This document shows, one piece after another, positions 6,863 to 10,896 of a stretch of 64,000 nucleotides of DNA. The stretch comes from Hamadaea tsunoensis DSM 44101 (GTDB lineage Bacteria; Actinomycetota; Actinomycetes; Mycobacteriales; Micromonosporaceae), in NCBI RefSeq assembly GCF_000428945.1, contig NZ_AUAX01000004.1, positions 372,001-436,000 of the forward strand, written 5' to 3'. The position numbers were made by a program, and so were the translations under genes. Position 1 is the first letter of the stretch, and every line of letters starts with the position of its first letter. Under the pieces are notes generated by a model. That model was not told the origin of the DNA, did no database searches, and saw only the letters and a list, made by a program, of their open reading frames with translations.

Positions 6863-6997
6863 TCAGGACGCGTGCCACCGCGTCACGCTAAGCGTGACCG
6901 AAGTATCCGATACTGCGATCACGCGCAATAGCGCAAGTCGCTCCGGGGTCTCTTCCCTCCTATTCGTTGACACACAGACAAGCTGGCCAACCCTTAG
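6863..6997 (-). pseudogene. 3' fragment of a gene interrupted by the IS element
   Basis: Read on the minus strand, this piece continues the frame of the 8566-9077 fragment when 6998-8565 and one CTTAG copy are removed. It adds about 45 codons (RVGQLVCVSTNRREETP, then RLALLRVIAVSDTSVTLSV) to a TGA at 6863-6865. The LVCV...LALLRV...VTLSV pattern is the usual C-terminus of actinobacterial secreted or membrane proteins of this kind. The fragment has no start of its own. Confidence 0.75.
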
Positions 6998-7072
6998 TGA
7001 GTGTTTGAGAAGTTCTCATGACGCTTCGCGTGTCGTGGTCGCATGTCGTAGTGGATCGTCCATAGTGGTCGG

Positions 7073-7912
7073 ATGCCGCGCGAGCGTCGCTACCCCTCCG
7101 ACCTGACCGACGCCCAGTGGGCGCTGATCGAACCACAGCTGCCGCCCCCGCGCACAGGCGGGCGGCCCGAGAAACACCGACGCCGTGACATCGTCGACGC
7201 CATCTTGTATGTGGTCCGCACCGGCTGCTCGTGGCGGCAGCTGCCGGTCGACTTCCCGCCGTGGCCGACCGTGTACTGGTACTTCGTGCGCTGGGAGGAA
7301 GACAACCTCACCGAACGGATGCTGGCGGTCTTGCGCCGACGGGTACGCGCTGCCCAGGGCCGCAACGAGGAACCGTCGGCAGGGATCATCGACTCCCAGA
7401 GCGTCAAAGGCGCCGACACCGTGCCGCGCAAGACCCGCGGCTACGACGCAGGCAAGAAGATCAACGGCCGCAAGCGGTTCATCGTCACCGACACCCTCGG
7501 CCTGCTGCTGATCGTGTGCGTGATGGCTGCGTCCGTGCAAGACCGCGACGGCGCCAAGACCACCCTGCTAAGCCTGTACCTGTTCACCCCGGTCCGGTTC
7601 GTCTACGCCGACGCAGGCTTCGCCGGAATGCTGGTCGACTGGTGCCGGCGCATCCTGCACACGGTGCTTGAGGTGGTACGTAAGGCGCCCGGCCAGAAGG
7701 GGTTCGCCGTCATCCCGCGCCGCTGGGTGGTGGAGCGGTCCCTGGCGTGGCTGACCGCCCACCGGCGGCTGGCCCGCGACTACGAACGCCATCCAGCCAC
7801 CTCCGAAGCGATGATCCGCTGGGCCGCGATCAACGGCATGGTCCGTCGCCTGTCCCGCGGCAAACCCGCCACCCGTCAACGGGCCTGGACGCTCGATGAT
7901 CTCAGGATGTGA
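7073..7912 (+). CDS. IS5-family DDE transposase
   Basis: The 279-residue protein is full length for its group. The N-terminal domain (DLTDAQWALIEPQLP, then RRDIVDAILYVVRTGCSWR) is the usual DUF4096-type DNA-binding part. Catalytic acids: Asp in IIDSQSVKGAD (about residue 105), Asp in VYADAGFAG (about 180), Glu in WVVERSLAWL (about 223). No frameshift or stop is seen. It would catalyse cut-and-paste movement of the surrounding element between its 15-bp ends. A short GTGAAT...ATTCAC hairpin follows the stop, between it and the passenger gene. Confidence 0.93.
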   Translation: MPRERRYPSDLTDAQWALIEPQLPPPRTGGRPEKHRRRDIVDAILYVVRTGCSWRQLPVDFPPWPTVYWYFVRWEEDNLTERMLAVLRRRVRAAQGRNEEPSAGIIDSQSVKGADTVPRKTRGYDAGKKINGRKRFIVTDTLGLLLIVCVMAASVQDRDGAKTTLLSLYLFTPVRFVYADAGFAGMLVDWCRRILHTVLEVVRKAPGQKGFAVIPRRWVVERSLAWLTAHRRLARDYERHPATSEAMIRWAAINGMVRRLSRGKPATRQRAWTLDDLRM

Positions 7913-7933
7913 ATCGCAGCAGCCCAAAGGCAT

Positions 7934-8542
7934 TCACAGATCGGCCACGCACTCGTGGCAACGCTGGCGTGCCGCATCCAGGTTGGCATGATCATCCTCG
8001 AACGCCTCGCCGGCTCGACACATTGCAATCCAGAAAGCCCTGTTCTCCCTCCAGCGCATGCTGCCCAACGACTCCAACCGCAGGAACGCCTTCACCAAGC
8101 GTCCCGTTCGTAGGTCATTGAACAGCGTCACCGCATAGCCGCTCGGAACTCCCTCGACCGTGCCGAGCACGGCGCGCAAACGGGAGGCGATCTCTTGCTG
8201 GTCTTCGTTGAGCGTGACATCCGGATCGAAATAGCCGTGCCTGGCAAGCAGGTCCGCCGCGTCGGCTTCCTCATCCGCCTCGATCAGATCCCACAGACCA
8301 CCGAACTCCTCAAGACGCCTTTGGGCATCCGCTCGCGGCGATCCGGCAGCAACGCACACGGCGACGGCAGCCTCAGCGGGAGCAAACCCAGCAACGAGAA
8401 GCTTCACAAAGGCGTCAGGAGCTGCGGCTCCAGACGCCAATTGCTCACGAGCTGCCCGCTCCAGCAGTTCATCGTTCGACGACGCTGACATGTCGAACAT
8501 CATGTCGCACCAACCACGCGCGTCCAGAGGTGTAGCGGGCAT
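7934..8542 (-). CDS. IS passenger protein of unknown function
   Basis: The longest frame starts at ATG 8542 (202 residues), only 9 bases inside the right inverted repeat. In-frame ATGs at 8503, 8500 and 8491 are alternative starts. The protein is soluble, helical and acidic, with segments LLERAAREQLASG, FVKLLVAGFAPAEAAVAV, DADLLARHGYFD-like and LNEDQQEIASRLRAVLG, and three Cys near the C-terminus. I recognise no family, catalytic motif or DNA-binding helix. It has little room for its own promoter and may be read from the interrupted host gene, which runs in the same direction. Roles such as transposition control or host fitness are speculation. Confidence 0.7.
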   Translation of the reverse strand: MPATPLDARGWCDMMFDMSASSNDELLERAAREQLASGAAAPDAFVKLLVAGFAPAEAAVAVCVAAGSPRADAQRRLEEFGGLWDLIEADEEADAADLLARHGYFDPDVTLNEDQQEIASRLRAVLGTVEGVPSGYAVTLFNDLRTGRLVKAFLRLESLGSMRWRENRAFWIAMCRAGEAFEDDHANLDAARQRCHECVADL

Positions 8543-8565
8543 TACCGCGGCTTCTCAAACACTCA

Positions 8566-9077
8566 CTTAGGGAAACCCCGCGTCCGGTTGCTTCTGTCGC
8601 AAGGATCTTGACGCACTCCGCCGCAGTTGCCAGGTCGGTCTGGTAGGGAAAGGCGACCAATGAGGACGAAACAAATGGCGTTTGCAGTCTACCGCTCATA
8701 AACTTGAGGTCTGCATAACTAATCTGACTCACAGTCGAATCTCTTAGCGCAATGCTCCAGGGAGGAGTGTCGTCGAGCTCTAAATAGACCTCTTCACCCA
8801 GGGCGGGGGAGGTCACCACGATCTCTCCAGTCCAATCAAGATCCCATGAGCTCGGCCAAGCCGAAGGCGCAAGCGAAGGTGACACCGAAGGTGTCGGCAT
8901 CGCCGAGACGGCGGATGTCGCAGGCGGAGTGTATACATCTGTACGGCCGGTGTTCGCCTCTGAGCTGTTGGGCCCGGCGGAATAGATCTGCACGAGACCG
9001 ACGGCCACACTGGCCACGGCACACATGCCGGCAATTACGGTCCATCTGGCGACGGAGCGCTCGCCGAATAGTGACAT
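8566..9077 (-). pseudogene. 5' part of an IS-interrupted membrane protein gene
   Basis: From ATG 9077 the product has one membrane helix (WTVIAGMCAVASVAVGLVQI), a Ser/Pro/Thr-rich linker (TPSVSPSLAPSAWPSSWDLD) and an extracytoplasmic domain starting EIVVTSPALGEEVYLELDD. The frame reaches the element at codon CTA-AG(T), then reads 34 foreign codons to a stop at 8469. Removing the element joins it to 6863-6997 in frame, giving a protein of about 210 residues. An in-frame ATG at 9284 would add 69 residues of doubtful coding quality. The region is visibly lower in GC than its surroundings. Confidence 0.75.
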
Positions 9078-9588
9078 GGGCGTAGCGTAAAGAAGCTGAT
9101 TGCCAAATGCAAGATTGAGCCTCTTGGGTTCGGCCGCGGCGCCAGTGCCCGAAGATGATCTCCCCGGGCCGCTCTCTGGCGTGACATGGAGCCACAGCGC
9201 CGTCTGGAACTGTGCAGGACTGAGCCTATTGTTTGATTCTACGCAGTTCGGTCCCTCAGTAGACGAACCTGACTGCCTCGTCATCGATCTAGGCCCGGGC
9301 GGGTATTCAGTGAGCCTTTCCCAGTAACGGTTCGTAACTCGGTGTGGTCATGTGGTGCGGCCGTGTTCGATGTGCAGCTTGATCTCTTGGTCGAGACCAC
9401 TTCTACAGGGGCTTCACTCTTTTCCGTTGCACCGCAACCCTTGCGGCGTGTCGCACCAGGACACTCGCCCAGCGCGACGGGCGGTTACTGCGAAGGGCTC
9501 AATGCCTTCAATCACCGCGGACACGCGCGATTGGCCACCGGCCAACCTGAGCTTGCCTTTCGGGGCCATTTCGCAGGAGCAGGTCGCC
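9078..9588. other. Gap between the interrupted gene and the hydrolase gene
   Basis: About 510 bases without a convincing gene. On the minus strand 9078-9284 stays open in the frame of the interrupted gene and could be its 5' extension. On the plus strand 9100-9327 is open but codes for an implausible mixture. At 9339-9378 lies the left copy of a 40-bp inverted repeat described separately. 9379-9588 holds nothing I recognise; it looks like scarred mobile-element DNA. Confidence 0.5.
9339..9378. repeat. Left copy of a perfect 40-bp inverted repeat
   Basis: This segment is the exact reverse complement of 10857-10896. On the minus strand it encodes the last residues of a DDE_Tnp_4-like transposase (LHIEHGRTT and stop) plus 10 bases. 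Beyond it the two copies diverge. Both transposase tails point outwards from the enclosed hydrolase gene. Confidence 0.9.
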
Positions 9589-10497
9589 TCAGGGGGATGT
9601 CGCCTCAGGGTGCTCGAGCAGACCGTGCATCCTCATCCAGCTCACGAAGGAGTCGAACCAGTCGGTGCTGGTCGTCTCCTTCGGGTACATGCCGAATCCG
9701 TGCCCGCCCTGCTCGTAGAAGTGGAGCTCCACGGGCCGCCCGGCAGCGCGCCAGTTCTCCACTAGGGGGAACCCGCTCGGGTCGATCAGGCCATCGTCTG
9801 CGGCAAGTGCGATGAACAGCGGCGGCGCGTCGTCGGGTACCTCGAACGCCGTGAGCGGACCGTAGATGTCGCCGATGAAGGCCGGCTTCGCATCCTCACC
9901 GACAAGGGCGGTGGCGACGGTGAGCATGGCACCGGCGGAGAAGCCGACCATGCCGACGCGCTCGGGATCGATTGTCCACTCGGACGCTCGGCTGCGCACG
10001 AGCGCGAACGCTGCGCGGGCGTCGGCGATCTGCGGGTCCAGGGCGCGGAGCGCGGTGGCTGGGTCATGCCAGTCCGATGGACGTGGTCCGGCCAGCATCG
10101 CCCTGATCGCTACGGCGAAGTCGTCAAGGTCCTCCGGGGTCGGCTTGAGCCGGTACTTCAGCACGAAGGCAGCTACGCCGCGGTTCGCGAGCGCGCGCGC
10201 AACGTCCCAGCCCTCGTTCTCCATGGACAGGGACATGAATCCTCCGCCCGGAGCCACGATCACGGCGGTGCCCGTGGCCTTGGCCGGATCCGGCAGGAAC
10301 GGCGTGAGCGTGGCGATGCCGACGTTGCGGGCGAACATGCTGCCGTACTCGCTGTGCCAGGCCTCTGGTGCCGAGGCGTTCGGCGGCTGCCCGGTTCCGA
10401 GCTCGATGGCGTCAGGCTGTGCGGGGATGGCGATCGGCGTCATCCCGTGCTTCTCGGGCACCGCGGGGGCGTAGCTGGTGGACGAGGCCGTGGTCAT
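9589..10497 (-). CDS. Alpha/beta hydrolase of the esterase/BD-FAE type
   Basis: The 302-residue protein starts at ATG 10497, preceded by GGAGAG at 4 bases; the longer frame to 10557 is unlikely. Hallmarks are the oxyanion-hole motif APGGGFMSL, the nucleophile Ser in GFSAGA, Asp in AADDGLID and His in GGHGFGMY. A PEDLDDFAVAIRAML segment matches lipolytic or acyl-sugar esterases. There is no signal peptide, so it is probably cytosolic, and its substrate is unknown. It lies between inverted transposase remnants and may have arrived with them. Confidence 0.8.
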   Translation of the reverse strand: MTTASSTSYAPAVPEKHGMTPIAIPAQPDAIELGTGQPPNASAPEAWHSEYGSMFARNVGIATLTPFLPDPAKATGTAVIVAPGGGFMSLSMENEGWDVARALANRGVAAFVLKYRLKPTPEDLDDFAVAIRAMLAGPRPSDWHDPATALRALDPQIADARAAFALVRSRASEWTIDPERVGMVGFSAGAMLTVATALVGEDAKPAFIGDIYGPLTAFEVPDDAPPLFIALAADDGLIDPSGFPLVENWRAAGRPVELHFYEQGGHGFGMYPKETTSTDWFDSFVSWMRMHGLLEHPEATSP

Positions 10498-10683
10498 GAG
10501 CTCTCCATTCGGGCGATGCACCAAGACAACGCGATGTCCGCGCTCGGCGCTGAGCATAAGGTCGCCGCGATCACGCCGATGCGGGTGGCCTGATTATGCC
10601 TGTCCAGGCAGACCTGTTCGGCCTGCGCCGGCACTCCGTGCGCTTCGACTGGGGCCCGTAGGGCGCAGGCTGTCTGCGCTGAC

Positions 10684-10887
10684 GTGAGTGACGGCGCTCT
10701 GACCGACGACCAACGCCAGCTCAACTGGCTTCAGGCGTACGCCCGAGCCCGAGCCGAACAAGCCAACTCGCTGCTCAAGACCACCTTCAAGGCAGTACGC
10801 CGGGTCAGCTTGTCGCCCGACATCATCGGCGCCATCGTCACCGCCGCCCTCGTCCTGCTGCACATCGAACACGGCCGCACCACATGA
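10684..10887 (+). pseudogene. C-terminal remnant of a DDE_Tnp_4-type transposase
   Basis: The 67-residue frame carries ARAEQANSLLKTTFKAVRRV and IIGAIVTAALVLLHIEHGRTT, the characteristic end of IS5-group DDE_Tnp_4 transposases. The catalytic core is absent, so this is a dead fragment. Its last 31 bases are part of the 40-bp inverted repeat that also occurs at 9339-9378. Confidence 0.75.
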
Positions 10888-10896
10888 CCACACCGA
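10857..10896. repeat. Right copy of a perfect 40-bp inverted repeat
   Basis: Exact reverse complement of 9339-9378. It spans the final codons of the transposase remnant (stop at 10885-10887) and 9 further bases. Together the copies bound a 1,558-bp segment holding the hydrolase gene. Host-like coding sequence resumes seven bases to the right. Confidence 0.9.

Follow-up and report, generated by a model that had tools for sequence, protein, structure and literature searches.

Transporter insertion sequences (tIS) are described in passages of PMC3129680 and PMC9330008 as insertion sequences that combine their own transposase and ends with a passenger unrelated to transposition. Such elements are named in the IS1 and IS1595 families in a passage of PMC8496243, and one IS6 member, ISDsp3, is named as a transporter IS in a passage of PMC7986276. 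Among the literature matches listed, whose scope does not extend to ISfinder, there was no IS5 or IS427 transporter IS. Could an element of the IS5 family carry a gene in the same manner? Here we describe a candidate from Hamadaea tsunoensis DSM 44101, located in a 64,000-nucleotide stretch of contig NZ_AUAX01000004.1 (positions 372,001 to 436,000), hereafter the window.

Like the named transporter IS, the window element has its own transposase and ends, and an unrelated passenger lies inside both ends. Unlike them, it belongs to an IS5 lineage in which related transposases are accompanied by unrelated cargoes, on either side of the transposase, and one relative keeps the relic of a shifted end. 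With the plain IS5 elements of Micromonosporaceae it shares the transposase family (82% DNA identity to the element of genome G268, at locus L023), similar ends and the TNA target, whereas the right end of the plain elements lies a few bases after the transposase stop and leaves no second gene. As in composite transposons, a gene would be moved between IS ends; in contrast to these, there is one end pair and no second flanking IS copy, a single transposase lying between the two TTA copies. The element may be the collapsed product of a composite structure. We consider it highly probable that it is a transporter IS, namely an IS5-family element that has its right end on the far side of a captured gene and whose transposase moves that gene as part of the element. 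Transporter IS as such are already known; we take the IS5-based form with several cargoes among related elements to be new because no IS5 case appears among the literature matches listed.

The element, its ends and its insertion site

Self-comparison of the window reveals an inverted repeat pair at 6991-7012/8551-8572 (22 nt, 95% match). The IS5-family element itself spans 6997-8566 (1570 bp), with terminal inverted repeats GTGAGTGTTTGAGAAG that agree at 16/16 positions. Short terminal inverted repeats and a short target duplication, both required of the IS5 family, are thus present (16/16; TTA here, TNA in related copies), and a TNA duplication fits some IS5 subgroups, for example IS427. The preliminary description had placed the element at 6993-8570, with 15-bp ends and a CTTAG duplication. 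That reading describes the same join, shifted by one base, because the pre-insertion target, reconstructed as CCCTTAGGG, is near-palindromic; 16-bp ends with a TNA duplication, in this case TTA, are the better reading. Distinct copies whose ends are paired and whose TNA flanks are identical number 49 (a count that includes 3 copies later judged not clean); in 32 of them a C precedes and a G follows the TNA. The cargo copies in G091, G106 and G015 are without this outer C and G, and the duplicated unit is therefore best called TNA.

The earlier view of a real IS5 element with exact ends and an intact transposase is otherwise borne out: the open frame matches NCBIfam NF033580 with E 5.7e-63 (212.9 bits, cut-off 110). 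A scan of 6900-8700 for sigma-70-like promoters found none, which says little, since none was seen for the transposase either.

Table. Features of the window element and of the reading frame that it interrupts. Positions are those of the window.
Feature	Positions	Strand	Basis
Downstream part (C-terminus, stop) of interrupted ORF	6863-6993	-	joined-flank frame
Target duplication, left copy, TTA	6994-6996	.	read from sequence
Left terminal inverted repeat, GTGAGTGTTTGAGAAG	6997-7012	+	16/16 against right end; motif recurs in relatives
IS5-family DDE transposase, 279 aa, frame intact	7073-7912	+	NCBIfam NF033580; Pfam DUF4096, DDE_Tnp_1
Passenger gene, up to 202 aa; alignment with homologues suggests that the true start is at 8491, giving 185 aa; predicted all-helical	7934-8542	-	homologues, dN/dS, model
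Right terminal inverted repeat	8551-8566	-	pairs with left end
Target duplication, right copy, TTA	8567-8569	.	read from sequence
Upstream part of interrupted ORF; hydrophobic stretch by eye	8570-9284	-	joined-flank frame

When the flanks are joined, an ORF continues in frame over 303 codons from stop to stop. Its upstream part has no match in Pfam or NCBIfam, and a search of 199 other genomes of the family found no homologue of the ORF at E <= 1e-4. Insertion sites in relatives had been put forward as a check on the element. No empty site was found: the three other genomes of the genus contain nothing that corresponds to the right flank, and they match the left flank at chance level only. With no counterpart in other genomes, the case for the empty site comes from the frame that stays open when the flanks are joined. 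Recent or continuing mobility had also been suggested. The window copy combines an open transposase with exact ends and equal flanks, which points to recent mobility, against which stands the lack of an empty site in another genome; mobility of the lineage is better supported, by an element found at two sites in another genome of the genus (see below).

Further along the window, two 40-bp arms at 9339-9378 and 10857-10896 are perfectly complementary. The right arm overlaps the end of a DDE_Tnp_4-like transposase remnant (10684-10887), and an alpha/beta-hydrolase gene (9589-10557, minus strand) lies between the arms. The segment 9339-10896 may be a decayed composite in which two inverted IS remnants surround a gene.

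The passenger gene and the other cargo-bearing copies

The passenger is a 609-bp ORF that fills the space from the transposase stop to near the right end. It is convergent with the transposase, beginning near the right end and running toward it. A search of 354 Micromonosporaceae genomes recovered homologues with about 30-50% identity in 11 other genomes, those of G096, G097 and G098 being partial or split. A 397-genome sample of the order added one homologue outside the family (G619), and one plasmid record, from Streptomyces tendae, has a homologue at 33%. Contigs searched with the single passenger sequence gave no relative, while the alignment gave two loci. In its own genome the passenger was found at two places only, the window element and one further copy of the unit.

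This further copy lies on another contig (C14, 13997-15315) and supplies what the preliminary description had proposed to look for, a second unit with the same passenger. It is 83-84% identical in DNA to the window element over the aligned parts, its ends match with one mismatch, and the passenger sits in the same place and orientation (73.5% amino acid identity by tblastn). The C14 transposase has lost about 250 bp and carries a frameshift, the passenger is still open, and the flanks are unequal (TCA/TTA). Owing to the deletion with frameshift and the unequal flanks, C14 looks dead as an autonomous element. Between the two copies the passenger has a dN/dS of 0.27 at a dS of 0.48 (Nei-Gojobori script); the corresponding values for two parts of the transposase are 0.11 and 0.18. 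Judged by this ratio the passenger is under purifying selection and, taken together with the homologues in 11 other genomes, the ORF is a coding gene. The claims that a convergent non-transposase gene lies inside the ends and that this is a cargo-carrying form of IS5 are both upheld by these comparisons, the same passenger being found in the same place in C14.

What might the passenger do? Searches of Pfam, NCBIfam, PADLOC and PHROGs gave no match. Among PDB sequences the best hit, to a LacI-type regulator (E 0.019), was judged to be chance. The AlphaFold model, built on an alignment of 3 sequences, is a confident one with 11 helices and a pLDDT of 88.1, and Foldseek returned no PDB or BFVD match for it at E <= 0.001. 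Gene neighbours of the stand-alone homologues vary between loci. One homologue adjoins a SUKH-like gene that falls below the Pfam cut-off (25.3 against 27 bits), which is too thin a basis for an immunity role. Our best guess, a doubtful one, is an accessory interaction or immunity-type protein.

Could it instead be an accessory transposition protein, a regulator or inhibitor of the transposase? Its retention with the transposase in the window element and in C14, under purifying selection, speaks for such a role. Yet unrelated proteins occupy the same place in close relatives, 39 of 46 clean relatives are without a passenger, and a window-type transposase was found near none of the 11 stand-alone homologues (checked over about 7 kb on each side or to the contig end, two of them on short contigs). 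A role in transposition therefore seems very improbable.

Direct comparison of copies was also possible in G133, a genome of the same genus, where one element with a different cargo, an HflX N-terminal-domain (HflX-N) protein, occupies two sites, one flanked exactly by TAA and the other by TCA. Of 1487 aligned positions 1454 are the same in both copies, and 29 of the 33 differences constitute one insertion. This is good evidence, drawn from sequence comparison, that in this genome a cargo element moved in one piece. A skeptical reading would have chance neighbours, a plain IS beside a resident gene followed by the leftover end of another IS copy, which never moved jointly. Solo ends do exist in G133 (L186 and L187). 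The occurrence of the same cargo and transposase at two sites here, and at two in G133 that each have their own exact TNA flanks, argues against chance association, which we regard as a slight possibility, and would imply movement of the transporter IS together with its passenger.

Plain and cargo-bearing relatives

A related transposase (E <= 1e-10) is encoded in at least 204 of 354 Micromonosporaceae genomes. We examined 112 of the stronger transposase places, drawn by similarity among the matches listed, for paired ends. Of these, 54 had no end pair with matching TNA flanks and 9 were duplicates, leaving 49 distinct elements. Ten elements were first scored as cargo-bearing and three of them were dropped on inspection: the reverse-transcriptase gene of L155 was read as part of a group II intron within a plain IS5 relative (G257 C1), the ends of L170 were spurious, and the second gene of L029 was the adjoining transposase of another family. 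Without these three the clean set comprises 46 elements. Plain relatives of 915-945 bp account for 39, including four from outside the family (L112, L114, L120 and L133), and cargo-bearing elements for 7; this is not a population rate, because the places were chosen by similarity to the window transposase among the matches listed. That IS5 elements are normally transposase-only, as the preliminary description stated, agrees with the prevalence of these ~930-bp relatives. Passenger-free copies had been expected to speak against a cargo-carrying form. They do exist, with nearly the same ends, in G268 and G333, and show only that the plain form is usual. At one locus (L075; G016 C1 2,456,810-2,462,321) three copies of a plain relative are closely spaced in the same direction.

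C14 and the elements in G092 and G328 have paired ends with unequal flanks and were counted as cargo elements outside the 7 of 46. In total, ten cargo elements from eight Micromonosporaceae genomes carry seven kinds of cargo, which are mutually unmatched (best between-kind blastp E = 1.9). Seven elements hold their cargo on the right, after the transposase stop and before the right end: the 202-aa gene in the window element and C14, the HflX-N protein (PF13167) in both G133 elements and in G092, a 144-aa protein with no family match in G091, and a protein with a weak AAA match below the cut-off in G328. The other three hold it on the left, after the left end and ahead of the transposase: DUF7919 in G106, HAD_SAK_2 in G015 and a 151-aa protein with no family match in G196. 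None of seven proteins (the six other cargoes and an ORF at L186) matched a defence system in PADLOC. C14, G133b, G091, G092 and G106 have a disrupted transposase frame; that of the window element is intact. When right-cargo elements with different cargoes are compared, homology stops at the 3' end of the transposase and restarts at the terminal repeat, so the cargo forms a clean module.

We then considered how cargo is distributed on a transposase tree of 44 rows. These come from a subset of the fetched places, with G133a added by hand; a place was omitted if its ends could not be recognised or had >4 mismatches, if it exceeded 1000 bp, or if it was identical in sequence. Cargo elements occupy three places, a clade of six that includes the window element (99/94), a clade of three (96/93) and G196 alone. 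The cargo state requires 3 changes, whereas shuffled labels need 9.1 (none of 500 shuffles came as low), a clustering to which near-copies add. A single clade for all ten cargo rows is rejected (p-AU 2.7e-12), and one gain of cargo with later losses is compatible with the tree. The clade of six holds three cargo kinds. On the best tree G091, with its different cargo, is nested among the HflX-N elements (99/97), which, if right, would mean cargo replacement; the nesting is not secure, because a topology that unites the three HflX-N rows passes (p-AU 0.247). Under either topology the clade of six would have seen at least two cargo changes or separate gains.

Possible routes of cargo acquisition

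From these elements we infer how the lineage may act, how it may have captured genes and whom the cargo may benefit. The transposase would act at the two 16-bp ends, carry the gene along and insert at TNA targets, in a Micromonosporaceae lineage whose elements have similar transposases and ends and hold different cargoes on either side of the transposase. An adjoining gene could be trapped when a second copy of an end, from another IS copy, lies beyond it; the inner end would then decay, leaving the outer end in use. The passenger probably benefits the host, and hence the element.

If the outer copy is used instead, the original end is expected to remain as a relic. Nine cargo positions were scored for an inner end against 500 shuffles and sequence windows, and a clear relic emerged at only one. 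G196 retains a damaged inner left end, GAGC--GTTTGAGAAG, about 70 bp upstream of the transposase, where the left end of plain elements lies; none of 500 shuffles and none of 95 windows scored as high. A relic in C14 is weak (15/500 shuffles and 0/163 windows as high) and that in the window element weaker still (44/500 and 13/163). No inner-end relic was detected on the left in G106 and G015 by the shuffle test, nor on the right in G133b, G092, G091 and G328 (4 of 6 positions). Outside these nine positions, the decayed copy L186 of genome G133 bears two tandem left ends 439 bp apart, both after CTGA and the inner one with 3 mismatches; a 107-aa ORF lies between them, and a transposase remnant follows the inner end. 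(This segment, L186 2150-2604, G133 C1 near 5,916,600, lies near a gene that matches an ALF repeat.) The inner end of G196 and the tandem ends of L186 hint at capture by outward relocation of an end.

The main rival to end relocation is exchange between element copies, in which cargo is swapped by way of the shared transposase gene and the shared end and not freshly captured from the chromosome. The abrupt limits of homology at the transposase 3' end and the terminal repeat would be expected of exchange [the same limits that define the module], as would the position of G091 on the best tree. L187 in G133 (1994-2536; G133 C1 near 2,008,020) also fits, since it consists of an HflX-N gene and the right end of the lineage without a transposase. 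The cargo module of a complete element in that genome matches it at 88% identity. Against this, the tree that unites the HflX-N rows is not rejected and the right side offers only about 20 bp of homology. We hold exchange to be possible, though unlikely, as the source of the cargoes.

If IS5 elements are annotated by their transposase only, genes that travel along may be overlooked. The change from an IS to a cargo transposon is otherwise mostly inferred from finished products; here the steps of capture are testable, because plain elements, elements with seven cargoes, a damaged inner end (G196) and tandem ends (L186) coexist in one genome family. We propose tentatively, and with a little less than even confidence, that this IS5 sub-lineage is a minimal cargo-swapping transposon, in which a 0.9-kb transposase module repeatedly acquires new ends beyond adjacent genes, to its left or right, and shuttles individual accessory genes from one actinobacterial genome to another, the vehicle being inherited and the cargo replaced. 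The element lineage may thus act as a minimal gene shuttle.
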